From the NCBI GenBank assembly GCA_022823055.1, contig JAJDXX010000109.1, forward strand, positions 1 to 35,852: 35,852 nt of DNA, written 5' to 3'. The position numbers and the translations under genes are program-made. The stretch comes from Candidatus Binatia bacterium. Its GTDB lineage: Bacteria > Desulfobacterota > Binatia > UBA9968 > JAJDTQ01. The notes under the pieces were generated by a model. That model saw only the letters and a program-made list of their open reading frames with translations, searched no databases and was not told the origin of the DNA. Position 1 is the first letter of the stretch; every line of letters starts with the position of its first letter. Below are positions 2,088 through 34,627 of the stretch, piece by piece.

Positions 2088-3005
2088 TCAATCGTCCGGA
2101 AAGTAATCCGAATCGATCCTCTTCACTTCGTAGGTTTCCTCGGTCGTCACTCCGACGCCGTGGTCGATCATGAACTCGGCGAGTTTGGCTCCGTCGATCA
2201 AAATGATCTTGGTTTCAATATTTGCGGCGAACGCCATCGCCTCACGCGAGAAGGTTGAAGTAGTGATGAAGACGCCCTTACGGGCGCGCTGCCCCTGAAG
2301 GGCGCCAGCAAATTTCTGGACGTCGGGCCTACCGACGACATTCTCCCACCGTTTGGCTTGGACGTAAATGATGTCCAGCCCAAGCCGGTCCTCCTTAATG
2401 ATTCCGTCTATGCCCTCGTCGCCGGAGCGGCCTATCGCCTCACCGGCTTCCTGTCGTGAACCGCCGTAGCCCATGCGGAGGAGCAAATCCACAACGAGTT
2501 GCTCGAAGAAAGAGGGGGGCGATTCCATAACAGCCTTGAGGAGTTCGTCCGCCAAGTTCTTGCGTAGCACCATGTACGCATCCTGTAGGGTTTCCTCAGG
2601 CGTGTTCTCCTGGTTCCCGTTATTCGGGGAGGTTACTCCAACCTGCGATGATGGCTGGCGGCGACGCTGCTGAAAGCTCTTGAATTCTTCGAACTGTTCA
2701 AGAAATTTGATATTGATCGCGGAGGGTTTGTTAGCGAGAACATCACGTCCCCTTTCCGTGATGCAAAAGCAGCCCCTCTTGGGAGATTCCAGTAGGCCGG
2801 CGTTTGTGAGGTATGACCGAGCCCAGTGGACTCGGTTGACAAACCTTGGCTGGCGGCCACTCGGCAAGATTTCCCTTTTCTCGTCGTCCGTTAAATCGAA
2901 GCGTTGGGCTAGGGTGTCGTATGTCTGGCGGAGATGGCGAGTTTCCCCGTCAGTAGCCAGTTCCAACAAAGGCAACATTAGAGACTGGAAGTCCGGAATT
3001 GGCAT
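2088..3005 (-). CDS. mrr: Mrr-type restriction endonuclease
   Basis: Likely start MPIPDFQSLMLPLLELATDGE at 3005 (the 3248 start is over-extended); C-terminal 'GRSGDEGIDGIIKEDRLGLDIIYVQAKRW' matches the D...QxK Mrr catalytic core; N-terminal winged-helix-like Mrr_N. Confidence 0.9.
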   Translation of the reverse strand: MPIPDFQSLMLPLLELATDGETRHLRQTYDTLAQRFDLTDDEKREILPSGRQPRFVNRVHWARSYLTNAGLLESPKRGCFCITERGRDVLANKPSAINIKFLEQFEEFKSFQQRRRQPSSQVGVTSPNNGNQENTPEETLQDAYMVLRKNLADELLKAVMESPPSFFEQLVVDLLLRMGYGGSRQEAGEAIGRSGDEGIDGIIKEDRLGLDIIYVQAKRWENVVGRPDVQKFAGALQGQRARKGVFITTSTFSREAMAFAANIETKIILIDGAKLAEFMIDHGVGVTTEETYEVKRIDSDYFPDD

Positions 3006-3069
3006 GCGTTTCTCCGGTACGTATTCTGCTGGAGCGGTAGATGCGTGTCTCGTAGCGGGACCCAAGCTC

Positions 3070-3288
3070 TCACCCGGCTCGATAAGTCCGCACCGGCAGC
3101 GCCTCGGTCTCCAAGGTGGACAGGTCGAGGCGTTTGGAAGCATTATCGATGTCGAAGCCCACGACGTCCCCGTTGGCGTCGAGATCGACGTTGAGCCCTC
3201 CGGCGACTTCGCGTGTCTCGGTACCCGGTCCCAGCTTGAGTTCGACATAAAGACTGTCGGTTTCGGGGTAGTAGTGGAGTTTCATCAT
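3070..3288 (-). CDS. DUF2283 domain-containing protein
   Basis: 72 aa 'MMKLHYYPETDSLYVELK...NVDLDANGDVVGFDIDNASKRLDL' is characteristic of DUF2283. Confidence 0.85.
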   Translation of the reverse strand: MMKLHYYPETDSLYVELKLGPGTETREVAGGLNVDLDANGDVVGFDIDNASKRLDLSTLETEALPVRTYRAG

Positions 3289-3363
3289 TCTTCCTTTCGA
3301 AAACCGCGATCAAAGAAGGTCGTGGACTCCACCATCGATTGTCTCGTTCAACTTTTCTCCTGG

Positions 3364-4977: not shown

Positions 4978-5916
4978 ATGAGCATGAATCTGGACAGCAT
5001 TACCGTCGATTCGATCCGGGACTCGTTGCGCGAGCGCAAGTACATATGCGACCGGAGCCTCGCCACCGTGGTCTATCTCTCGGTGCGCCTGGGCAAGCCG
5101 ATCCTGCTGGAAGGGGAGGCGGGCGTAGGCAAGACCGAGATCGCCAAGGTGCTCGCGGACGTGCTTCAGACCCGGCTCATCCGGCTCCAGTGCTACGAAG
5201 GGCTGGACTCCAACACCGCGCTCTATGAGTGGAACTACCCGAAGCAGATGCTGCGCATCAAGCTGGAGGAGATCGGCACGGGCAACCGCGAGGCGGTGGA
5301 GACGGAGATCTTCTCCGAGGAATACCTCATCAGCCGGCCTTTGCTGGACGCCATCCGCACCGACGGCGCCGAGCCTCCGGTGCTGCTCATCGACGAGATC
5401 GACCGCGCGGACATGGAGTTCGAGGCCTTCCTCCTCGAGGTGCTGTCGGATTTCCAGATCAGCATTCCCGAGGTCGGCACCATCGCGGCGGCCAAGCGCC
5501 CCTACGTGTTCCTCACCTCGAACCGCACTCGCGAAATCCACGACGCCCTCAAGCGCCGCTGCCTGTACCACTGGATCGAGTACCCCACGTTCGAGAAGGA
5601 GTACGAGATCATCACCACCAAGCATCCGGAGATCCAGACGCTCATGGCCGAGCAGATCTGCGCGTTCATGCAGCAGGTGCGGCAGATGAACTTCTACAAG
5701 CGGCCGGGGGTGGCGGAGACCCTGGACTGGGCGTCGGCACTGCTGCTGCTGAACCGCGGCGAGCTGGACCCGGAGATCGTGAAGGAGACCGTGGGCTGCG
5801 TGTTCAAATACCGCGAGGACCTGCACCACCTGGAGGAAGAGCTGTCCGGCGACAAGCTCGACATGGACCGCATCCTCAAGGAGCCGGCCACCGTGGTCGG
5901 CGGGGGCGTCCGGTAA
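4978..5916 (+). CDS. MoxR-family AAA+ ATPase (CoxD-like)
   Basis: Walker A 'LEGEAGVGKTEIAKVLA', Walker B 'VLLIDEIDRADMEFEAFLLEVL', 'FLTSNRTREIHDALKRRCLYHWIEYP'; start taken at MSMNLDS. Confidence 0.93.
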   Translation: MSMNLDSITVDSIRDSLRERKYICDRSLATVVYLSVRLGKPILLEGEAGVGKTEIAKVLADVLQTRLIRLQCYEGLDSNTALYEWNYPKQMLRIKLEEIGTGNREAVETEIFSEEYLISRPLLDAIRTDGAEPPVLLIDEIDRADMEFEAFLLEVLSDFQISIPEVGTIAAAKRPYVFLTSNRTREIHDALKRRCLYHWIEYPTFEKEYEIITTKHPEIQTLMAEQICAFMQQVRQMNFYKRPGVAETLDWASALLLLNRGELDPEIVKETVGCVFKYREDLHHLEEELSGDKLDMDRILKEPATVVGGGVR

Positions 5917-5941
5917 CGCGGTTGCCCGCCCGGATCTCGAC

Positions 5942-7162
5942 ATGGCAAGAGAAGTCAACGAGGAAGAGATCGTCCGCGCGGTGGAGCGCTACAAGCGCCT
6001 GCGCGGCCAGGGCACCATGGCCAACATGCTCGTGTTCGGCCGGGTGCTCAAGGACCTGGGCTTCCGCCTCGGGCTGAGCCAGGTCATCGACGCCAACCGC
6101 TGCATGCCGCTCATCGACATCCGCAGCCGGCCGGACTTCCACCGGACGCTGGCGGCCAACCTGCTCCACGACCACGAGGACATTGCGCTCTTCGACCAGG
6201 TGTTCGAGGCCTTCTGGCAGGGCGACATGGAGATCGAGCCCGCCATGGAGACCATGGAGGTGCCGGCCCAGAGCCCCGACGACTCGCTGGACCCCTCGGA
6301 CGACAGCAGCGGCACGACGGAGGAGACCATCGCCGAAGAGGAGGGCGCGGCCGACGAGGGCGATCCGGACGCGGACCCGATGCTGGTGCCCACCTACAGC
6401 CCCAACGAGCTGTTGAACGAGAAGGACTTCAGCGAGATGGGCATCGAGGAGAGCCGGGCCGTGACCCAGGCGATCCTGCTCATCGCCTCGAAGATCGCCA
6501 CCCAGGTTAGCCGGCGCAAGAAGCGCGCGCGCCGGGGCACCGAGATCGACCCGCGCGGCACCATGCGGCGCAACATCAAGTACGGCGGCGAGCTGGTGGA
6601 GCTGGTGGCGCGCAAGCGGCGCATCAAGAAGACACGGGTGGTGCTGCTGTGCGACGTGAGCGGCTCCATGGATTGCTACAGCCGCTTCCTGATCCAGTTC
6701 ATGTACGGCCTGCAGAACGAGCTGTGGGGCGTGGAGACCTTCGTCTTCAGCACCACCTTGAGCCGCATCACCCACCTGATCCGCACCAAGAACATCGGCA
6801 ACGCCCTGGAGAAGATCTCCAAGAGCGTGCTGGGCTGGTCCGGCGGCACCAACATCGGGCGCTCGCTGGAAATCTTCAACCGCGATTTCGCGGTGAGCAT
6901 GGTGACGCACCGCACCGTCGTGGTCATCATCAGCGACGGCTGGGACCGGGGCGACGTGGGCGTGCTGGAACGGCAGATGCAGGCCCTCAAGCGGCGCTGC
7001 GGCAAGATGATCTGGCTCAATCCGCTGCTGGCGAGCGAGAACTACGAGCCCTTGTGCAAGGGCATGCAGGCGGCGCTGCCGTACCTGGACCTGTTCCTGT
7101 CGGCGCACAACGCCAACAGCCTGGTCCATCTCGGCCACACCATGCGCCGGCTGGTGGCGTAG
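5942..7162 (+). CDS. VWA domain-containing protein, CoxE-like
   Basis: MIDAS-like 'LLCDVSGSMDCYSRF', 'GWSGGTNIGRSL', 'VVIISDGWDRGD'; directly after MoxR. Confidence 0.92.
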   Translation: MAREVNEEEIVRAVERYKRLRGQGTMANMLVFGRVLKDLGFRLGLSQVIDANRCMPLIDIRSRPDFHRTLAANLLHDHEDIALFDQVFEAFWQGDMEIEPAMETMEVPAQSPDDSLDPSDDSSGTTEETIAEEEGAADEGDPDADPMLVPTYSPNELLNEKDFSEMGIEESRAVTQAILLIASKIATQVSRRKKRARRGTEIDPRGTMRRNIKYGGELVELVARKRRIKKTRVVLLCDVSGSMDCYSRFLIQFMYGLQNELWGVETFVFSTTLSRITHLIRTKNIGNALEKISKSVLGWSGGTNIGRSLEIFNRDFAVSMVTHRTVVVIISDGWDRGDVGVLERQMQALKRRCGKMIWLNPLLASENYEPLCKGMQAALPYLDLFLSAHNANSLVHLGHTMRRLVA

Positions 7163-7280
7163 CGCGAAGAGAGTGTCGCCGGGGACGATCGGCAACGCCG
7201 CCCGGGAAGGGCGTATTTCAAACCCGTCCGAGTAGCGGCTTACCGAACTCTTTCGGCAGGCTCGGGACTGGGAGGCATCG

Positions 7281-7622
7281 ATGGAGAACATCTACGACGA
7301 CGTCAAGGAATTCCTCGACAAGGGCGAGACGGTGGCGGTGGCGACCATCGTGTCCACCAAGGGTTCGACCCCGCGGGAGGTCGGCGCCAAGATGGTGGTG
7401 ACGGCCTGGGGCGAGATCCTCGGCACCATCGGTGGCGGCTGCGGCGAGGCGGACGTGCGGCGCGAGGCCATCGAGGTGGTGCGCACGCGCAAGCCCCGCA
7501 CGGTGCGCGTGGACCTGCTGGACGAGATCTCGTCCGACAGCCCGGCGGTGTGCGGCGGCATCATGAACGTCTTCATCGACCCCTGGTGGAAGGACGAGGA
7601 AGGGGACGAGAAGAGCGCGTGA
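7281..7622 (+). CDS. XdhC/CoxI N-terminal domain protein (single domain)
   Basis: 113 aa 'VATIVSTKGSTPREVGAKMVVTAWGEILGTIGGGCGEADV...AVCGGIMNVFIDP'. Confidence 0.9.
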   Translation: MENIYDDVKEFLDKGETVAVATIVSTKGSTPREVGAKMVVTAWGEILGTIGGGCGEADVRREAIEVVRTRKPRTVRVDLLDEISSDSPAVCGGIMNVFIDPWWKDEEGDEKSA

Positions 7623-7677
7623 GGGAGCCTGTCGCGGGCGCCGGGCCCGGACCGGCGTATGGCAAGGTGACGGATGC

Positions 7678-8448
7678 ATGGACGCACTGGTTGAAGAGCT
7701 GATCAAGGTCAAGAGCGAGGGCGCCGGCGCGGTGCTCATCACCGTGGTGGAGTCCGACGGCGTCGACGGGTTGGACAGCGGCGCCAAGTGCCTCGTGCGC
7801 GACGGGCGCATCGTGCTGGGATCGGTGAGCGACCCGGCGCTTGAGCAGAGGATCGTGCGCGAAGCCGCCGAGCGGCTGGCCGAGGAGCGCTCCCGACTGC
7901 TTTCGCTGGAGACGGACTCGGGCGGGCAGGCGGACGTCTTCTTCGAGGTGATGCCGTCGCCGCCCAAGCTTATCGTCGTCGGCGCCGGACACATCGCCGT
8001 GCCGCTGGTCAAGATGGCCAAGCTCATGGACTACCACGTGGTGGTCGTCGACGACCGCATACTCTTCGCCAACCGCGAGAGGTTCCCCGAGGCTGACGAG
8101 GTGGTGGTGGGGGACATGGCCGAGACCGTGAAGGACATGGACATCACCCCCACCACCTACGTCGTGCTCATCACGCGCGGCCACAAGTACGACGAGCCGT
8201 GCCTGCGCGAGCTGCTGGACCGCCCGGCCAAGTACATCGGCATGATCGGCAGCAAGCGGCGCATCAAGGCGTGCTTCGAGCGCTTCAAGGAAGAGGAACA
8301 GATATCAGAAGAGCTCATCTCCCGAGTGTACGCCCCCATCGGCCTCGACATCGCGACGGAAACTCCCGAAGAGATCGCGCTGGGTATCCTGGGCGAGATC
8401 ATCAAGGTCCGGCGCGGCGGCAAGGCCCGGTCCCTGTCCCGGAAGTAG
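7678..8448 (+). CDS. XdhC/CoxI family protein with C-terminal Rossmann domain
   Basis: 256 aa; 'KLIVVGAGHIAVPLVKMAKLMDYHVVVVDDR', 'YIGMIGSKRRIKACFERF', 'VYAPIGLDIATETPEEIALGILGEII'. Confidence 0.92.
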   Translation: MDALVEELIKVKSEGAGAVLITVVESDGVDGLDSGAKCLVRDGRIVLGSVSDPALEQRIVREAAERLAEERSRLLSLETDSGGQADVFFEVMPSPPKLIVVGAGHIAVPLVKMAKLMDYHVVVVDDRILFANRERFPEADEVVVGDMAETVKDMDITPTTYVVLITRGHKYDEPCLRELLDRPAKYIGMIGSKRRIKACFERFKEEEQISEELISRVYAPIGLDIATETPEEIALGILGEIIKVRRGGKARSLSRK

Positions 8449-8486: not shown

Positions 8487-8888
8487 GTGAAAGGGGAGGT
8501 GTTCTCGGACCTGGGACGCGCCGGTGCGTTTCTGGGCGTCGACTGGGTGCGGGAGGCCATCCGTGAGCGGATCGGGTTCGATCCCTACCCCGGCACATTG
8601 AACCTGCGGCCGCGCGGGGACGAGCTGTCCCGCTGGGAAGAGGTCCGGCGGGACGGGGCAAGGAGCGTGGTGTCGCCGCCCGATCCGGGTTTCTGCGGTG
8701 CCTTCCTCTACACGGGCTTTCTCGAAGGCTGGGCATCTTCGGCGGGACCGCGCGAAAAGGTCGCGGTGGTGGTGCCCGAGGTCAGGGACTATCCCACAGA
8801 CAAGCTGGAGATCATCGCCGCGGTTTCGTTGAAGCAGACCCGCTCGGTGCGTGACGGCGACGAGTTGACCGTGGTTTTCGGCGAGTAG
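8487..8888 (+). CDS. Archaeal-type CTP-dependent riboflavin kinase (DUF120) domain protein
   Basis: 'VKGEVFSDLGRAGAFLG...IGFDPYPGTLNLRP...KLEIIAAVSLKQTRSVRDGDELTVVF' shows the PYPGTLNL and EIIA...L.DGD motifs of archaeal RibK. GTG at 8487 chosen; exact start uncertain. Confidence 0.85.
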   Translation: MKGEVFSDLGRAGAFLGVDWVREAIRERIGFDPYPGTLNLRPRGDELSRWEEVRRDGARSVVSPPDPGFCGAFLYTGFLEGWASSAGPREKVAVVVPEVRDYPTDKLEIIAAVSLKQTRSVRDGDELTVVFGE

Positions 8889-8912
8889 GCAGTTTACAGG
8901 AGGTAAGTCCGC

Positions 8913-9506
8913 ATGCGTCGTGTCATCGTAGGCCTGTCAGGGGCCACCGGTTCCATCTACGGAATCCGCATACTCCAGGTGCTGCACAAGATACCGGACA
9001 TCGAGACCCACCTCGTCATGAGCAAGGCGGCCAAGATGACGCTCCAGGTGGAGACGCCGCACACGGTCAAGGAAGTGGAAGCCATGGCCGACATGGTGCA
9101 CGACATCAACAACATCGGCGCGAGCATCGCCAGCGGCTCGTTCCGCACCGAGGGGATGGTCATCGCGCCGTGCTCCATGAAGTCCATGGGCGGCATCGTC
9201 ATGTCCGTCGGCGGCGACCTGCTGGTGCGCGCCTCGGACGTCATCCTGAAGGAGCGGAAGAAGCTCGTGCTGGTGGTGCGGGAGACCCCGCTGCACCTGG
9301 GGCATCTGGAGAGCATGGCGCAGCTCACGCGCATGGGCGCGGTGATCTTTCCGCCCGTGCCCGCCTTCTATCACAGGCCCAAGACCCTGGACGACGTCAT
9401 CAACCAGACCGTGGCGCGGATACTCGACCAGTTCGACGTCGAGACCGACATGTTCCACCGGTGGGACGAGGAGTCCCTGAGCCGCTATCCCGGCGACGGG
9501 CAATGA
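8913..9506 (+). CDS. ubiX: UbiX family flavin prenyltransferase
   Basis: 'RRVIVGLSGATGSIYGIRILQVL', 'VIAPCSMKSMGGI', 'LVLVVRETPLHLGHLESMAQLTRMGAVIFPPVPAFYHRPKTLDDVI'. Confidence 0.93.
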   Translation: MRRVIVGLSGATGSIYGIRILQVLHKIPDIETHLVMSKAAKMTLQVETPHTVKEVEAMADMVHDINNIGASIASGSFRTEGMVIAPCSMKSMGGIVMSVGGDLLVRASDVILKERKKLVLVVRETPLHLGHLESMAQLTRMGAVIFPPVPAFYHRPKTLDDVINQTVARILDQFDVETDMFHRWDEESLSRYPGDGQ

Positions 9507-9557
9507 GCCCGAGCCGCGTTCCCCGGTGAGCGCCGGACCGCCCGCGCGGAGAGCCGC

Positions 9558-10043
9558 ATGGCCGATCTCGAAGAACAGGTGCTGGAATACCTCCGCACCC
9601 ACAACACCATGACCCTCGGCACCTGCCGCGACGGCGTGCCGTGGAACGCCACGGTGTTCTATGCCAGCGACGGACTCCAGCTCTACTTCTTCTCGGCGCC
9701 GGACTCGCGCCACTGCACCAACCTCGCGGACAACCCGCGGGTGGCGGTGACCGTCCAGGAGGACTACAAAGACTGGCGCGAGATCAAGGGCATCCAGCTC
9801 GAGGGCACCGTGGAGCTCGTGGACTCGGTCATCGCCAAGGCCAAGGCCCTGGCGGTGTACGCGCGCAAGTATCCGGGCATCATCAAGCTCTTCACGGACC
9901 CGGCGAGCGGCATCTACCACAAGGCGTTTCTCAAGGTGAAGTTCTACCGGGTGACCCCGGAGAGGCTCTACTACATCGACAACCAGCAGGGGTTCGGCAA
10001 GAGGCAGGAGCTGGCGCTGGGCGAGGGCGCGGCGGCGAGCTGA
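9558..10043 (+). CDS. Pyridoxamine 5'-phosphate oxidase family (FMN-binding split-barrel) protein
   Basis: 161 aa 'NTMTLGTCRDGVPWNATVFYASDGLQLYFFSAPDSRHCTNLADNPRVAVTV'. Confidence 0.88.
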   Translation: MADLEEQVLEYLRTHNTMTLGTCRDGVPWNATVFYASDGLQLYFFSAPDSRHCTNLADNPRVAVTVQEDYKDWREIKGIQLEGTVELVDSVIAKAKALAVYARKYPGIIKLFTDPASGIYHKAFLKVKFYRVTPERLYYIDNQQGFGKRQELALGEGAAAS

Positions 10044-10103
10044 CGCGGCTGAACGGGGATGGCGCGGCGTCCACGGCCGCGTCGAACCGAGGAGGAAGGG
10101 TTC

Positions 10104-10589
10104 ATGTCACGACTGGTGGGCAAGGAGATGCCGGACGATCTGTTCGCGCTGATGAGCGGCAAATCGGTCGAAGCCGGAAAGGTGTTCATCATGGCCACGG
10201 TGGACGAGAACGGCTGGTGCCACCCGGCCATGGGCTCCTACTACGAGCTGGTGGCCAAGAGCCCGGGGCGCATCCATCTGGCCGTGGGCAAGAACAGCAC
10301 CACGGAAAGGAACCTCGTGCGCACCGGCGCGCTGACCCTGGTGGTCACGGACCACGGCCTGAACTACTACCTCAAGGGCAACGCCACGCGCACGCGGGAA
10401 CAACTGGAAGACACCCCCTTCGCGCTGTTCCAGGTGGAGCTTGACACCGTGCTGGAAGACCAGGAACAGGGAGTCACCATCGTAAGCGGCGTCCGCTACG
10501 AGTTGAATCAGAGCAGCAACGCCGGTTTCATGCGGCAGATGCTCGACAAGACCTGCGCCGCGCTCGCTGCGGCACCCTGGGAGGAATAG
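10104..10589 (+). CDS. PPOX-like FMN-binding split-barrel protein
   Basis: 'VFIMATVDENGWCHPAMGSYYELVAKSPGRIHLAVGKNSTTERNLVRTGALTLVV'; start MSRLVGK after gaggaggaag RBS. Confidence 0.75.
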   Translation: MSRLVGKEMPDDLFALMSGKSVEAGKVFIMATVDENGWCHPAMGSYYELVAKSPGRIHLAVGKNSTTERNLVRTGALTLVVTDHGLNYYLKGNATRTREQLEDTPFALFQVELDTVLEDQEQGVTIVSGVRYELNQSSNAGFMRQMLDKTCAALAAAPWEE

Positions 10590-25807: not shown

Positions 25808-26830
25808 GTGTTCCATGTCCCGCCTGTCTCCCACGCGCTCGACGATGCGATCCGGCGCGCCATCGACGGCAAGACCAAGCCCCTAGGCGCCTTGGGAGTC
25901 CTGGAGACCGTCGGCGCACAGATCGCGCGCATTCAACACACGCTGACTCCCAGGCTGCGCCACTGCCGCCTCACCATCTTCGCCGGCGACCACGGAATCG
26001 CCGCGGAGGGTGTGTCTCCCTATCCGCAGGCCGTGACCCGTCAGATGGTGACCAATTTCCTCGCCGGCGGCGCCGCCGCCAACGTGTTCGCCCGTACCAA
26101 CGGCGTGGACCTGCAGGTGGTGGACGCCGGGGTCGCGGGCCACTCCATGGAGGCGCCGGGGCTCGTGTCGCGGCGCATTGCCGCGGGCACGCGCAACTGC
26201 GCGGTGGAGCCGGCCATGTCCCCGGAGCAATGCGAAGAAGCGCTGAGCGCCGGCGAGGCGCTCGGCGCCGCGGTGGCGGCGGACGCCGCGGCCTTCGGCG
26301 AGATGGGAATCGGCAACACCTCCTCGGCCACGCTGGTGGCCCACAAGCTCACGGGCGCGGGGCTGGACTCGCTCGTCGGACGGGGTGCCGGCCTCGACGA
26401 CGCGGGTCTGGAACGCAAGCATGCGATCCTTGACCGGGCGGCCCGGCGCACCGCCGCGCGGCTGGACGGCCAGGACGCGCTGCGGGAATACGGCGGCTTC
26501 GAGATGGCCATGATGGCCGGAGCCATGGTGGGAGCTGCCCGCGCCGGGGCGGTCGTGCTGGTGGACGGGTTCATCGCCGGCGCGGTCGCGCTGGCCGCGG
26601 TGCGGTTGGCGCCCGCGTTGCGGGACTACCTCGTCTTCGCCCACCGGTCCGCCGAGCACGGCCACGGCGCGGTACTGCTGGCGCTGGAGGCGCGCCCATT
26701 GCTGGCCTTCGACATGCGCCTCGGTGAAGGTACCGGCGCGCTGCTCGCCTGGCCGGTGCTCAAGTGTGCGGCGGCCATGCTCTCTGAAATGGCGAGCTTC
26801 GAGAGCGCCGGGGTGAGCGGTCCGGTGTGA
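25808..26830 (+). CDS. cobT: Nicotinate-nucleotide--dimethylbenzimidazole phosphoribosyltransferase
   Basis: 'KTKPLGALGVLETVGAQIARIQ', 'IFAGDHGIAAEGVSPYPQAVTRQMVTNFLAGGAAANVFAR', 'EMGIGNTSSATLV', 'GFEMAMMAGAM'; GTG start. Confidence 0.95.
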   Translation: MFHVPPVSHALDDAIRRAIDGKTKPLGALGVLETVGAQIARIQHTLTPRLRHCRLTIFAGDHGIAAEGVSPYPQAVTRQMVTNFLAGGAAANVFARTNGVDLQVVDAGVAGHSMEAPGLVSRRIAAGTRNCAVEPAMSPEQCEEALSAGEALGAAVAADAAAFGEMGIGNTSSATLVAHKLTGAGLDSLVGRGAGLDDAGLERKHAILDRAARRTAARLDGQDALREYGGFEMAMMAGAMVGAARAGAVVLVDGFIAGAVALAAVRLAPALRDYLVFAHRSAEHGHGAVLLALEARPLLAFDMRLGEGTGALLAWPVLKCAAAMLSEMASFESAGVSGPV

Positions 26831-26985
26831 TGCGGCGGGTTGGTAGAAGTTCAGCTCGGGGAGGTTCCCGGTAACCTGAGCGTCGTTCGGCGCTTGGACC
26901 AAATCCGATTGTTGCCGCCGAGCGAGTTGGCGCCCTTCGACTTCGCTACGCTCAGGACGAACGGTGTCCGTGTTTCCTTGGAGGA

Positions 26986-27753
26986 TTGCGCGGGGTGCGT
27001 GAAGAACTGGCGGTGTTTCTTTTGGCGGTGCAGTTTCTCACGCGCGTTCCGGTGTCGTCGGCGGACCTCTTCACCGAGGCGCGCTTTGCCGCCGCCACCC
27101 GATACTATCCTCTGGTGGGTGCTCTGGTGGGCGCGGTCGCGGGTGCGGTGTTTTGGTTTGCGCACTTGGTCTTTCCCATAACGCTGTCGGTGGTTCTCGC
27201 AACCGCCGCGGTGCTCCTGGTCACCGGCGCGTTCCACGAGGACGGGTTCGCCGACGCCTGTGACGGGCTTGGCGGTGGCGCCGCGCGCGAGCAGGCACTG
27301 GAGATCATGCGTGACAGCCGCCTCGGCACCTACGGCGCGGCCGGTCTCGGCCTGATGCTGGCCGCCAAGATACTGGCGCTGGCGGCCGTGCCGGCGGTGG
27401 TGATTCCGTGGCTCCTGGTGGCGGCCCACGCCGCGAGCCGCGCCTCGGCGGTGCTCGCCATTGCGACGGGCCGGTACGTGAGGGAAGACGGCGCGGCCAA
27501 GCCGGTGGCGGACGGCGTGACGCCGGCCGGTCTGGCTCTGGCGCTTGCCACCGGGGCCGTGGCGGTGGCGGGGCTGTGGCATCTGGCATCCCCGGCGGCG
27601 ATGCTGGCCGGTTTCACCGGGTTTGCGATCGGTCACGTCGTCATGCGTGGATTGTACGAACGAAAGCTCGGCGGTTATACAGGGGACTGTCTCGGGGCCG
27701 TGCAACAGACCAGCGAGTTGGGGCTCTACCTCGGCATCGTCGCGGTTTTGTAG
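26986..27753 (+). CDS. cobS: Adenosylcobinamide-GDP ribazoletransferase
   Basis: 'FLLAVQFLTRVPV', 'YYPLVGALVGA', 'GAFHEDGFADACDGLGGG', 'REQALEIMRDSRLGTYGAAGL', 'YTGDCLGAVQQTSEL'; start may be GTG at 26995. Confidence 0.95.
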   Translation: MRGVREELAVFLLAVQFLTRVPVSSADLFTEARFAAATRYYPLVGALVGAVAGAVFWFAHLVFPITLSVVLATAAVLLVTGAFHEDGFADACDGLGGGAAREQALEIMRDSRLGTYGAAGLGLMLAAKILALAAVPAVVIPWLLVAAHAASRASAVLAIATGRYVREDGAAKPVADGVTPAGLALALATGAVAVAGLWHLASPAAMLAGFTGFAIGHVVMRGLYERKLGGYTGDCLGAVQQTSELGLYLGIVAVL

Positions 27754-27786
27754 GCACGGTCAAAACTCATGAGACAAGGACCTCCT

Positions 27787-27917
27787 GAAACGTCATTCCC
27801 GCGGAACATGTTGTGTCAAAACACCATCTGAGAGAGGCAACAACCCCTTGAAATGTCATTCCCGCGAAAGCTTGCCCTCGACCCCGATCGGGGGCGGGAA
27901 TCCAGGGGTGGGCAGGG
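27787..27917. repeat. Two GTCATTCCCGCG-core repeat copies between cobS and cobC
   Basis: gaaacgtcattcccgcgg (about 27787-27804) and gaaatgtcattcccgcgaaagc...gcgggaatccagggg (about 27850-27907); same core as the 16171-16287 element. Confidence 0.8.
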
Positions 27918-27928
27918 GTTTCGGCACC

Positions 27929-28501
27929 ATGCGCTTGATTCTCATCCGTCATACGCGGCCCGCGGTCGCGGACAACGTGTGTTATGGCGTCACGGACGTA
28001 GACGTGGCGCCGACGTTCGAGGAGGATGCGGCGCGCGTGGTGGCGACCCTGCCGGCGGTGGAGCGGCTCGTGACCAGCCCGTTGCGGCGCTGCATGAGGC
28101 TGGCGGAGCGGATTGGGGCGGCGCGCGGACTCGTTCCGGTGGTCGACGGCAGGATCCGGGAGATGGACTTCGGTCGTTGGGAGTGCTTGCCGTGGAGTGC
28201 CATCGACCGGACGGAGCTGGACGCGTGGGCCGCGGACTTCTCTCACGCACGGCCCCACGGCGGCGAGAGCGTGGCGATGGTATCAAAGCGGGTCGGTTCC
28301 GCGCTGGCCGACTACCGCCGCAGCGGCGTGTCTCATGCGGTGGTGACCCACGCGGGTATCATCAAGGCCGCGCTGGCCGAGGCGGGCTGCGCGGACGCAT
28401 GGATGACATCGGCGGGTTTCGGCGATGCGGTGCACATCGAGTTTCCGGCCGAGCCGGAACGCTCACCCTCGGGTCCGCGCGGGGTGGGGTCGTGGGATTG
28501 A
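27929..28501 (+). CDS. cobC: Histidine phosphatase family, likely alpha-ribazole phosphatase
   Basis: 'MRLILIRHTRPAVADNVCYGVTDVDV', 'EMDFGRWECLPWSAID', 'VVTHAGIIKA'; lies inside a cob gene run. Confidence 0.85.
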   Translation: MRLILIRHTRPAVADNVCYGVTDVDVAPTFEEDAARVVATLPAVERLVTSPLRRCMRLAERIGAARGLVPVVDGRIREMDFGRWECLPWSAIDRTELDAWAADFSHARPHGGESVAMVSKRVGSALADYRRSGVSHAVVTHAGIIKAALAEAGCADAWMTSAGFGDAVHIEFPAEPERSPSGPRGVGSWD

Positions 28502-29499
28502 GCTCCTTCCATCCGCGGCACGGCGGCGATCTTGCGGCTGCCCGGCGGACATTCGGCTCGCCGCCTTGCGCGTGGCTCGACCTCTCCACCGGCGTCAACC
28601 CCTGGCCCTATCCATACGGTGCCATCGGCCCCGAAACCCTGACCCGCCTGCCGCAGCACGACGCGATGGAGGCGTTGCTGGCGGCGGCGCGAGAGGCCTA
28701 CGGCATCGCGCCCGCCAGCGTTCTGGCGGCGGCTCCGGGAAGTCAGGCCTTGCTCCAGTTGCTGCCGGCCATGAGGACCCGCTGCCGCGTGGCTGTCCTG
28801 GCGCCCACCTACGAGGAACATGCCGTGGCATGGCGTCGCCTGGGGCACGTCGTGGACGAGGTCCGCTCGCTCGGGCAACGTCCCGACGCCGACGTGGTCG
28901 TGGTGGTCAACCCCAACAATCCCGACGGCCGCATCACGGACCGGGAGACGCTGGTGCGGGCCGCCGAGAAACTGGCGCCACGCGGCGGCTGGCTCGTCGT
29001 CGACGAAACCTTTGCGGACGTCGCACCCGATGTCAGCCTGGCATCGGCTCCGGGCCTTCCCAATACGTTGATCGTGCGCTCTTTCGGCAAGTTTTTCGGC
29101 CTCCCCGGCCTGCGGCTGGGTTTCGTAGCCGGCCCGCCAACTCTGGTGGACGGCATCGCGCGGCGTCTGGGCCCCTGGGCCGTCTCCGGGCCCGCCCTGG
29201 AGATCGGCAGGCGGGCGCTGGCCGACACGGACTGGATCGTCCGCACCCGCGCCCGGCTGGCGGATATGCGGCTACGGCTCGACGGCGTTCTCTCGGAAGC
29301 CGGCTTGAGCCTTGTCGGCGGCACTGATCTGTTCCGGCTGGTGGAAACGGCCGGAGCCCGTGACCTCGCCCACCGCCTCGGCCGGGCCGGGATCCTGGTC
29401 CGGTCCTTCGATCGTCATCCAAGCTGGCTCAGGATCGGTCTGCCCCCGTCGCTGGATGCCCTGCAACGGCTTTCGGCGGAGTTGAAGGGGGCTCGTTGA
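28492..29499 (+). CDS. cobD: Threonine-phosphate decarboxylase
   Basis: 'HPRHGGDL...WLDLSTGVNPWPYP', 'VVNPNNPDGRITDRETLV', 'VVDETFADVAPDVSLA', 'IVRSFGKFFGLPGLRLGFV'; GTG start at 28492 overlapping cobC. Confidence 0.93.
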   Translation: MGLSSFHPRHGGDLAAARRTFGSPPCAWLDLSTGVNPWPYPYGAIGPETLTRLPQHDAMEALLAAAREAYGIAPASVLAAAPGSQALLQLLPAMRTRCRVAVLAPTYEEHAVAWRRLGHVVDEVRSLGQRPDADVVVVVNPNNPDGRITDRETLVRAAEKLAPRGGWLVVDETFADVAPDVSLASAPGLPNTLIVRSFGKFFGLPGLRLGFVAGPPTLVDGIARRLGPWAVSGPALEIGRRALADTDWIVRTRARLADMRLRLDGVLSEAGLSLVGGTDLFRLVETAGARDLAHRLGRAGILVRSFDRHPSWLRIGLPPSLDALQRLSAELKGAR

Positions 29500-29522
29500 G
29501 GCCGGGAGGCTAGCCGGGCGTC

Positions 29523-30518
29523 TTGCGCCGACGGACCGACGTGAACCTCTCCGACACCGCATCTCTCTTGCTGGCCGCGATGGTGTTCGACGCCTTCATC
29601 GGCGACCCCCGCTGGCTATACCGGGTTGTCCCGCATCCCACGGTGGTCATGGGCCGGGTGCTGGCGTTCTGCGATGGCCGATTGAATCGCCCCGCCTTCG
29701 GCCGCGCGGGCCGCCGCGTCGCGGGAGCCATCTCTACGGTAGCCGTCGTCGCCTCGTTCGGCTTGCTGGCGGCGCTGATCAGTGCCGGCCTGAGCGGATG
29801 GCCGGTCGGATTCTGGGTGGAGGCTCTGCTGGTCTCGGTGCTGATTGCCCAGAACGGCCTTTACCGCCACGTCGCCGACGTCGCCAACGCGCTGGAGCGC
29901 GACGGCGTCGATGCCGGCCGGAGCGCCGTCGCCCACATAGTCGGACGCGACCCCGAATCCCTGGATGCCCACGGCGTAGCCCGTGGCGCGGTCGAATCGC
30001 TGGCCGAGAACTTCAGCGACGGCGTGGTGGCGCCGGTCCTGTGGGGTCTGCTGCTCGGCCTGCCGGGCATCGCGGCCTACAAGGCGCTCAACACCGCCGA
30101 CAGCATGATCGGGCACCACGATCACCGCTACCGCGACTTCGGATGGGCGGCGGCGCGGCTGGACGATGTTGCCAACTGGGTGCCGGCGCGGATCGCCGGA
30201 TTCCTGTTGGCCGTTGCTGGCGCACCATCGAAGGTCGACAGCGCGATGCACGGCCTGAGGATCATGTGGCGGGACGGCGGCACCCATCGCTCGGTCAACG
30301 CCGGCTATCCGGAGGGCGCCATGGCCGGCGTCTTGGGCTTGCGTCTGGCCGGACCGCGCCGGTATCGGGGCGTCGTGACGGCTGACCCGTGGCTGGGCGA
30401 CGGCGCCGCCGAGGCGACCGCCGCCGACATCCGGCGCGCTCTCCGCGTCTATGTCGGCGCCTGCCTGCTCCTGGCCGTGCTGGTGGGAGCGTTGTTCGCC
30501 GCGTTGCGAGTGGCTTGA
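29523..30518 (+). CDS. cbiB: Adenosylcobinamide-phosphate synthase
   Basis: 'DAFIGDPRWLYRVVPHPTVVMGR', 'VAHIVGRDPESLDAHGVARGAVESLAENFSDGVVAPVLWGLLLGLPGIAAYKALNTADSMIGH', 'NAGYPEGAMAGVLGLRL'. Start may be GTG at 29541. Confidence 0.95.
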   Translation: MRRRTDVNLSDTASLLLAAMVFDAFIGDPRWLYRVVPHPTVVMGRVLAFCDGRLNRPAFGRAGRRVAGAISTVAVVASFGLLAALISAGLSGWPVGFWVEALLVSVLIAQNGLYRHVADVANALERDGVDAGRSAVAHIVGRDPESLDAHGVARGAVESLAENFSDGVVAPVLWGLLLGLPGIAAYKALNTADSMIGHHDHRYRDFGWAAARLDDVANWVPARIAGFLLAVAGAPSKVDSAMHGLRIMWRDGGTHRSVNAGYPEGAMAGVLGLRLAGPRRYRGVVTADPWLGDGAAEATAADIRRALRVYVGACLLLAVLVGALFAALRVA

Positions 30519-33366: not shown

Positions 33367-33675
33367 ATGAAGAGGACCCATGACATGGGCGGGGACACGG
33401 ACGCGGGGGCCATCGACCGTACCGAGCACGCGATGGACGACTGGGAGGTTCTCGCCGATGCGCTGAACCAGGTGCTCGGGGTGAAGGGCATCAAGTGTAC
33501 GGACGAGACCCGGCGCGCGCGCGAGGACATGGATTCGGAAGCGTACCTGTCTCTGAGCTACTACGAGCGCTGGATCGCCAGCCTGGAGACCATCCTGGTG
33601 GAGAAGGGTCTCGTGACCCGGGAGGAGGTCGACCGGAAGGTGGCCGAGCTGGAAAATCGCTGGGGTGAGCCATGA
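33367..33675 (+). CDS. Nitrile hydratase beta N-terminal-half-like subunit (cf. thiocyanate hydrolase beta)
   Basis: 'LSLSYYERWIASLETILVEKGLVTREEVDRKVAELENRWGEP'; start at ATG 33367 after cggagg. Confidence 0.8.
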   Translation: MKRTHDMGGDTDAGAIDRTEHAMDDWEVLADALNQVLGVKGIKCTDETRRAREDMDSEAYLSLSYYERWIASLETILVEKGLVTREEVDRKVAELENRWGEP

Positions 33676-33977
33676 GCGGCGCCGCGGTTTTCCGGGATGG
33701 CGCGGCGGTGCGAGTGAAGTCCCACTTCAAGCCGGGGCACGTGCGCACGCCGTTCTACATCAAGGGCAAGACCGGCTGGGTGGAACGGTGCTACGGCGAG
33801 TTCCGCAACCCGGAGTCCCTGGGCCACAGCGGCGACGGGTTGCCGCGGGTGCGTCTCTACTTGGTGGGGTTTCACCAGCAGGACGTGTGGGACGGTTACG
33901 ACGCGGGCAGCAAAGACAAGGTCTTCGTGGATATCTTCGAGCACTGGCTCGAGCCCGCCGCCGACGCGGGCGCCTGA
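33672..33977 (+). CDS. Nitrile hydratase beta C-terminal-half-like subunit (cf. thiocyanate hydrolase alpha)
   Basis: 'GAAVRVKSHFKPGHVRTPFYIKGKTGWVERCYGEFRNPE...LYLVGFHQQDVW...DKVFVDIFEHWLEPA'; ATGA overlap with the previous gene. Confidence 0.85.
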   Translation: MSGAAVFRDGAAVRVKSHFKPGHVRTPFYIKGKTGWVERCYGEFRNPESLGHSGDGLPRVRLYLVGFHQQDVWDGYDAGSKDKVFVDIFEHWLEPAADAGA

Positions 33978-33994
33978 GAAGAGGGGGGAAGACG

Positions 33995-34627
33995 ATGGCA
34001 CACGAGCACGAACCGGGAGAGGAGCACGAGGCGGGGCCGCGGCATGAGCTGAGCCACTGGGCCAAGCGGGCCTACGCCATGCGCGACATCCTGGTCGAGA
34101 AGGGCGTGGTGACGGAGAACGACATCCGCCAGCAGGCGGAGTTCACCGAGTCCAAGACGCCGGCCAACGGCGCCCGGCTGGTGGCGCTCTCCTGGACCGA
34201 TCCCGAGTTCAAGGCGCGGTTCATGGCCGATCCCAAGAAGGTGTGCGCCGAGATGGGCATCGACGCCAGCACCCTGAACGAGTTCGTGATCCTGGAGAAC
34301 ACGGACAAGGTGCGCCACATGGTCGTGTGCACGCTGTGCTCGTGCTACCCGCGTCCGATCCTGGGCCGGCCGCCGGACTGGTACAAGAGCTTCAACTACC
34401 GCAAGCGCGCGGTGAACGACCCGAGAGGGGTCATGCGCGAGTTCGGCCTGGATCTGCCCGACGACGTCGAGGTCCGGGTGCACGACAGCACCGCGGACAT
34501 GCGCTACCTGGTGATCCCGGCGCGCCCGGCGGGAACGGAGAACCTGAGCGTCGAGGAGTTGGAGAAGCTCGTCACGCGGGACAGCATGATCGGCGTGATG
34601 GACGCGTTGCCGTCCGTTCCGGAATAG
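33995..34627 (+). CDS. Co-type nitrile hydratase alpha / thiocyanate hydrolase gamma-like subunit
   Basis: Metal-claw motif 'VVCTLCSCYPRPILGRPPDWYKSFNYRKRAV'; VCTLCSC is the cobalt-type variant. Confidence 0.9.
   Translation: MAHEHEPGEEHEAGPRHELSHWAKRAYAMRDILVEKGVVTENDIRQQAEFTESKTPANGARLVALSWTDPEFKARFMADPKKVCAEMGIDASTLNEFVILENTDKVRHMVVCTLCSCYPRPILGRPPDWYKSFNYRKRAVNDPRGVMREFGLDLPDDVEVRVHDSTADMRYLVIPARPAGTENLSVEELEKLVTRDSMIGVMDALPSVPE

Follow-up and report, generated by a model that had tools for sequence, protein, structure and literature searches.

A UbiX-linked riboflavin kinase homologue in Binatia suggests a supply module for prenylated FMN

Introduction

Why would a bacterium keep a riboflavin kinase homologue of an archaeal family (RibK, DUF120) directly in front of ubiX? 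The UbiX family prenylates reduced FMN with dimethylallyl phosphate or pyrophosphate, and the UbiD enzymes that depend on the resulting cofactor (prFMN) contribute to ubiquinone synthesis, to the anaerobic degradation of aromatic compounds and to biotechnological decarboxylations. That UbiD is poorly activated in heterologous hosts is a recognised bottleneck, and to our knowledge little is understood about the way in which UbiX is provided with FMN and a dimethylallyl donor in the cell. Here, the question was approached through a stretch of 35,852 nucleotides from a Candidatus Binatia bacterium (the window) and through comparative genomics of RibK loci. In open-licence papers of PubMed Central, we found no description of a link between RibK and UbiX or UbiD, or of DUF120 in that role.

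Results

The RibK homologue of the window

The original prediction of a DUF120-like protein was borne out, since the product of the first gene in Table 1 matched the Pfam family PF01982 (CTP-dep_RFKase) over positions 1-119 of 121 with 77 bits (cut-off 25). A genome-wide family search identified no other PF01982 gene in this genome. The AlphaFold model of the protein (pLDDT 92, pTM 0.87) had as its top Foldseek match MJ0056 (2VBU/2VBV; E 2.9e-9, TM 0.79 to 2VBU), the Methanocaldococcus jannaschii riboflavin kinase that uses CTP. Residues T37, N39 and E108 were invariant among 31 archaeal and 81 bacterial sequences and corresponded to T43, N45 and E107 of MJ0056, where the Thr and Asn are presumably the Mg ligands and the Glu the flavin contact. 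In the MJ0056 row of this alignment, residues 8-56 and 91-129 matched the PDB alignment; the row set the numbering, counted among the 31 archaeal rows and was included in the tree.

The glycine-rich nucleotide loop GxGxG was not kept in the window RibK, where it read SDLGRAG. Namely, archaeal G14 (100% Gly) and G18 (90% Gly) were replaced by D8 and A12. Bacterial sequences had a signature of their own, with F15 and W20 near-invariant and C70 present in 81 of 81. The NCBIfam equivalogs for CTP-dependent riboflavin kinase were missed (NF040694, 44 vs 168 bits; NF010762, which describes a longer protein, 49 vs 279 bits). RibK may phosphorylate riboflavin, with CTP presumably the donor by analogy to archaea, but since the loop differed and the NCBIfam cut-offs were missed, the use of CTP by the window protein should not be assumed. 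With the altered loop, the nucleotide used or even the activity itself may deviate from that of archaeal RibK.

The dN/dS values (0.23-0.57 for RibK and 0.03-0.11 for UbiX) indicated that RibK was under purifying selection yet evolved faster than UbiX. In the RibK tree, which was modestly supported owing to the small size of the protein, bacterial sequences were apart from the archaeal ones with a single exception. This was locus L041 (genome G163), a phylum member whose RibK grouped with archaeal sequences and had no prFMN genes nearby; an independent transfer or an error in binning might account for it. In summary of the comparison with archaeal MJ0056, the window RibK shared the fold, the Pfam family, the Mg-ligand Thr/Asn and the flavin-contact Glu, whereas it differed by the changed loop and the bacterial signature, by being a second kinase in a genome that also has RibF instead of the sole FMN source, and by the linkage of the bacterial form to UbiX and UbiD.

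UbiX, the split-barrel proteins and the upstream genes

Table 1. Features of the RibK-UbiX operon region (positions in the window)
Feature	Position	Strand	Basis and remarks
MoxR-type AAA ATPase	4984..5916	+	AAA_5, MadB-like 274 bits; syntenic in order
CoxE-type VWA protein	5942..7162	+	PF05762 215 bits; syntenic in order
XdhC-family protein 1	7281..7622	+	PF02625 91 bits; syntenic in order
XdhC-family protein 2	7678..8448	+	PF13478 150 bits; syntenic in order
RibK-like riboflavin kinase homologue	8487..8888	+	PF01982/DUF120; 133 aa; GTG start at 8487 likely, not certain
UbiX flavin prenyltransferase, sole genome copy	8913..9506	+	PRK06029 275 bits, TIGR00421 237 bits
PPOX1, FMN split-barrel protein	9558..10043	+	PF01243 65 bits; related proteins fused to RibK or NUDIX in L086, L106, L118 and L132 (other phyla)
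PPOX2, PhdC-like split-barrel, candidate prFMN maturase or carrier	10104..10589	+	PhdC as best PDB match

The spacing and families that had been read from the letters also stood, with ubiX following ribK after 24 bp and two split-barrel genes coming next. The UbiX protein exceeded the cut-offs of both subfamily models (188 for PRK06029 in NCBIfam and 109 for TIGR00421).

The conserved start of PPOX2, according to alignment with relatives, was at 10104, as opposed to 10059 for the open frame. The frame 10059-10589 fell just under the PF01243 cut-off (24.6 vs 28.1). A PDB search with this single sequence placed PhdC (9SRG/9NK0) on top with an E-value of 0.0026, and a profile of 17 family sequences recovered 9SRG at 8e-7, the next unrelated match being at 0.22. 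PhdC, from Mycolicibacterium fortuitum, matures prFMN, has a split-barrel fold and activates UbiD (PMC13040415). The invariant E48 of PPOX2 corresponded to Glu47 of PhdC, while the C-terminal half of PhdC with Glu136 (ExW) was outside the alignment, and E118/E121 in the unaligned C-terminal half of PPOX2 were candidates for its counterpart. Since that half was unaligned, PPOX2 is a putative maturase. PhdC was the nearest PDB match and its Glu47 was kept, but the identity was low, and PhdC homologues have so far been reported from Actinomycetota only (PMC13040415). The split-barrel proteins had originally been regarded as flavin-binding partners or carriers; for PPOX2 this held in a specific form, as a PhdC-like protein, and the notion of a generic carrier did not.

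The MoxR, CoxE and two XdhC genes were located upstream of ribK in the same direction. No promoter-like or terminator-like sites above the shuffled expectation were found in the operon stretch. We know of no link between XdhC or CoxE and prFMN. The block of four genes (window 4984-8448) preceded RibK-UbiX throughout the order. Further upstream in a related locus (L068:11419-12243), there was a YqeB-type molybdenum-cofactor protein (TIGR03309, 359 bits). The operon would combine genes for the maturation of molybdenum enzymes with those for prFMN supply.

Consumers of prFMN and sources of its precursors in the genome

The genome of the window (4.27 Mb, 97.6% complete) contained UbiX in a single copy, the one beside RibK. 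UbiD was absent from the window, as had been noted originally, and the search of the genome revealed 32 UbiD (PF01977) loci as putative consumers, all on other contigs. The motif E-[GA]-x-x-G-[ED], which we take to be the Glu pair of the UbiD prFMN site, was kept in 22 of the 31 UbiD open frames that were read. The genome shared with the known UbiX-UbiD system a member of the UbiX family and a large number of UbiD proteins; in contrast to that system, its UbiX was paired with a riboflavin kinase homologue and putative maturation factors, apart from its 32 UbiD clients. The UbiD repertoire was unusually large across the order, with about 30 or more per genome and candidates up to 65 in genome G407.

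A search for ribF, suggested together with the original prediction, identified one ordinary RibF in the same genome. RibK was therefore a second riboflavin kinase homologue, and a role as replacement for RibF was ruled out. Likewise, RibF was found in 36 of 39 and 29 of 32 RibK-bearing bacterial genomes in two surveys, so that RibK was additional to RibF in most of them. A type-2 isopentenyl-diphosphate (IPP) isomerase was not found in the genome of the window, and its DMAPP would thus come from elsewhere.

Conservation of the gene pair within the order

Of 35 genomes from the order, 34 had PF01982, covering 15 of 15 genera, and RibK adjoined UbiX in all 19 loci inspected there. The upstream XdhC/CoxE genes were the same in the inspected loci wherever the contig reached. 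A close relative from Binatota/Binatia (L082) had UbiX 98% and RibK 80% identical to the window proteins. In a sister family (f2), a gene of 350 aa was located directly after ubiX, ahead of PPOX1 and PPOX2, and encoded a type-2 IPP isomerase (TIGR02151, 413 bits at a cut-off of 281). This enzyme converts IPP to DMAPP, and in f2 the operon could therefore serve both UbiX substrates. In many f2 genomes, a MacA/MacB-type efflux set, recognised by eye, was present after the PhdC-like gene (L068:3293-4585, 2583-3305 and 1283-2500).

Linkage across phyla

In an even draw of the phylum, 40 of 395 genomes had RibK. Among the 41 loci of these genomes, ubiX was located within 5 kb of RibK in 20, and in 18 of them within 200 bp; a rough estimate of the chance rate, based on three ubiX copies per 3.5 Mb, was about 1% per locus. 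Since the loci are related, a nominal p-value for this linkage would not be fair. At least one of UbiX, UbiD, LpdD, a PhdC-like protein or type-2 IPP isomerase was encoded within 5 kb in 25 of the 41. The recurrence of the ubiX linkage in related and unrelated genomes was thus in line with the original prediction, and the conservation in the order together with the linkage in other phyla ruled out a chance adjacency of ribK and ubiX.

The same five types of partners were found within 5 kb at 45 of 81 bacterial and 1 of 30 archaeal RibK loci (Fisher p 1.6e-7), where the bacterial set of distinct loci was partly seeded with UbiX-linked sequences. The contig scan was seeded mostly with such sequences and biased to them, and the draw of 395 genomes gave the unbiased count. 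Counts of UbiD linkage were lower bounds, as UbiD detection rested on L007, L046, L130 and L134. The order ribK-ubiX was observed in Binatota, in Aliiruegeria haliotis and in an Anaerolineae genome, while Syntrophaceae and others had the order ubiD-ubiD-ubiX-ribK with approximately 20-70 bp between the matched ubiX and ribK stretches. These differing gene orders suggested that RibK and UbiX were brought together repeatedly.

In roughly half of the RibK loci from bacteria, no prFMN gene was recognised within 5 kb. Most of these were RibK-HAD loci, fused or adjacent; the genomes of such loci, where UbiD was counted, still had two or more. About 38 bacterial loci had a HAD gene or domain next to RibK, fused or adjacent (e.g., L050, L055, L077 and L078), and the substrate of the HAD protein may be FMN, a riboflavin precursor or a prenyl phosphate. 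The plant AtFMN/FHy (PMC9678776), combining riboflavin kinase and FMN hydrolase, is a parallel to the bacterial RibK-HAD fusions, although its kinase belongs to another family and the window RibK is unfused.

The number of UbiD genes per genome followed the presence of RibK. RibK-bearing members of the phylum had a median of 4 and a minimum of 2 (n=26), and RibK-less members a median of 1 and a maximum of 3 (n=25; Mann-Whitney p 2e-9, with relatedness ignored). Genomes of the order contained from 29 to at least 33; among RibK-less class-mates, 13 of 14 were without UbiD and one had three.

Fusions and other partners of RibK

Some partners were joined to RibK in one open frame. In L118 and L132 (Actinomycetota), the fused partner was the type-2 IPP isomerase, and the frame just upstream was a NUDIX-PPOX fusion. 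PPOX1 was fused to RibK in L106 (Actinomycetes, PPOX1 first) and in L086 (Chloroflexi, RibK first). LpdD-like proteins (PF21758; best PDB matches LpdD, E 8e-8) were encoded near RibK in L074, L083, L084, L087, L108, L111, L120 and L137, including the order LpdD-RibBA-UbiX-RibK in L083 (Nitrospinota). LpdD is a prFMNH2-binding chaperone (PMC10865409); LpdD-like genes stood beside RibK in these other bacteria, with none in the window operon. NUDIX enzymes such as NudJ convert DMAPP to DMAP, which is needed for prFMN synthesis (PMC12359138), while DMAPP itself is a substrate for some UbiX enzymes (PMC6541611). Accordingly, the survey of neighbourhoods that had been proposed for the homologues extended the module of the relatives to type-2 IPP isomerase, LpdD, RibBA or NUDIX genes.

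Discussion

Taken together, these comparisons suggested that the operon was probably a prFMN supply module, in which RibK would act as a second FMN source dedicated to prFMN and feeding UbiX, with maturation factors encoded downstream. The original prediction of a dedicated module leading from FMN to prenyl-FMN was thus supported by comparative genomics. In the proposed scheme, RibK would convert riboflavin to FMN, presumably with CTP, and UbiX would transfer the prenyl group of dimethylallyl (pyro)phosphate onto reduced FMN, yielding prFMNH2. The PhdC-like protein, perhaps together with PPOX1, may then bind, carry or oxidatively mature the product, judging from its similarity, and the mature cofactor would reach the 32 (de)carboxylases of the UbiD family, whose genes lie on other contigs. 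The general FMN and FAD supply would be left to the separate RibF. In f2, the type-2 IPP isomerase of the operon could help to supply the prenyl donor. The altered nucleotide loop, the missed NCBIfam cut-offs, the many bacterial RibK loci with no prFMN gene close by and the XdhC/CoxE genes of the operon speak against this scheme.

A kinase next to UbiX might also serve the other substrate of this enzyme. It was unlikely, in our estimate, that RibK was a CTP-dependent kinase converting dimethylallyl alcohol (prenol) to dimethylallyl phosphate, even though the UbiX adjacency and the fusion with type-2 IPP isomerase fitted the prenyl side as well as the flavin side. Additionally, the flavin-contact position T99 of MJ0056 was not conserved in bacteria, and a precedent exists in E. 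coli, where ThiM converts prenol to DMAP (PMC12359138). However, the flavin-contact E108 and the Mg ligands were invariant and the fold was that of a riboflavin kinase. The prenol reading fitted less well because of this conserved Glu, the RibBA neighbours and the fusions with FMN-binding PPOX domains, all on the flavin side. A flavin role could in turn be a broader one, with RibK as a general back-up or regulated source of FMN and its adjacency to ubiX reflecting co-regulation with other flavin users, namely type-2 IPP isomerase, PPOX proteins and FAD subunits of molybdenum hydroxylases. We regarded this as unlikely, too. The isomerase and PPOX proteins do use flavin, XdhC/CoxE genes were in the operon, and many RibK loci had no prFMN genes nearby, but the recurring UbiX, UbiD, LpdD and PhdC-like genes are specific to prFMN, and UbiD number tracked RibK. 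Moreover, archaeal RibK, the general enzyme there, was without such linkage.

It seemed very unlikely that RibK was catalytically dead here and served as a flavin-binding chaperone or regulator. Such a role would agree with the changed nucleotide loop in the clade, the evolution faster than that of UbiX and the archaeal relative RbkR (5TRD), which doubles as a DNA-binding regulator. On the other hand, T37, N39 and E108 were invariant in the 81 bacterial sequences, the model kept the fold and the DNA-binding domain was absent.

Returning to the reading of RibK as a dedicated FMN source, its repeated joining to prFMN genes across bacteria points to a dedicated prFMN production line. More tentatively, bacteria with large or specialised UbiD sets might possess a self-contained prFMN factory, repeatedly assembled from RibK, UbiX, type-2 IPP isomerase, NUDIX/HAD, split-barrel and LpdD parts, where a CTP-dependent RibK would hand FMN directly to UbiX, apart from the route from RibF to FAD; we considered this joint proposal possible, though with the odds somewhat against it. 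Because a second riboflavin kinase homologue recurs together with UbiX, an enzyme for the prenyl donor and putative maturation factors, a function that can be tested directly may be proposed for bacterial DUF120 proteins, and this gene set offers parts for improving the activation of UbiD.

Two other regions of the window were recognised by eye. Positions 25808-30518 contained cobalamin genes (CobT-, CobS- and CobD-like), and positions 33665-34627 encoded a protein similar to the alpha subunit of nitrile hydratase with a CTLCSC motif.
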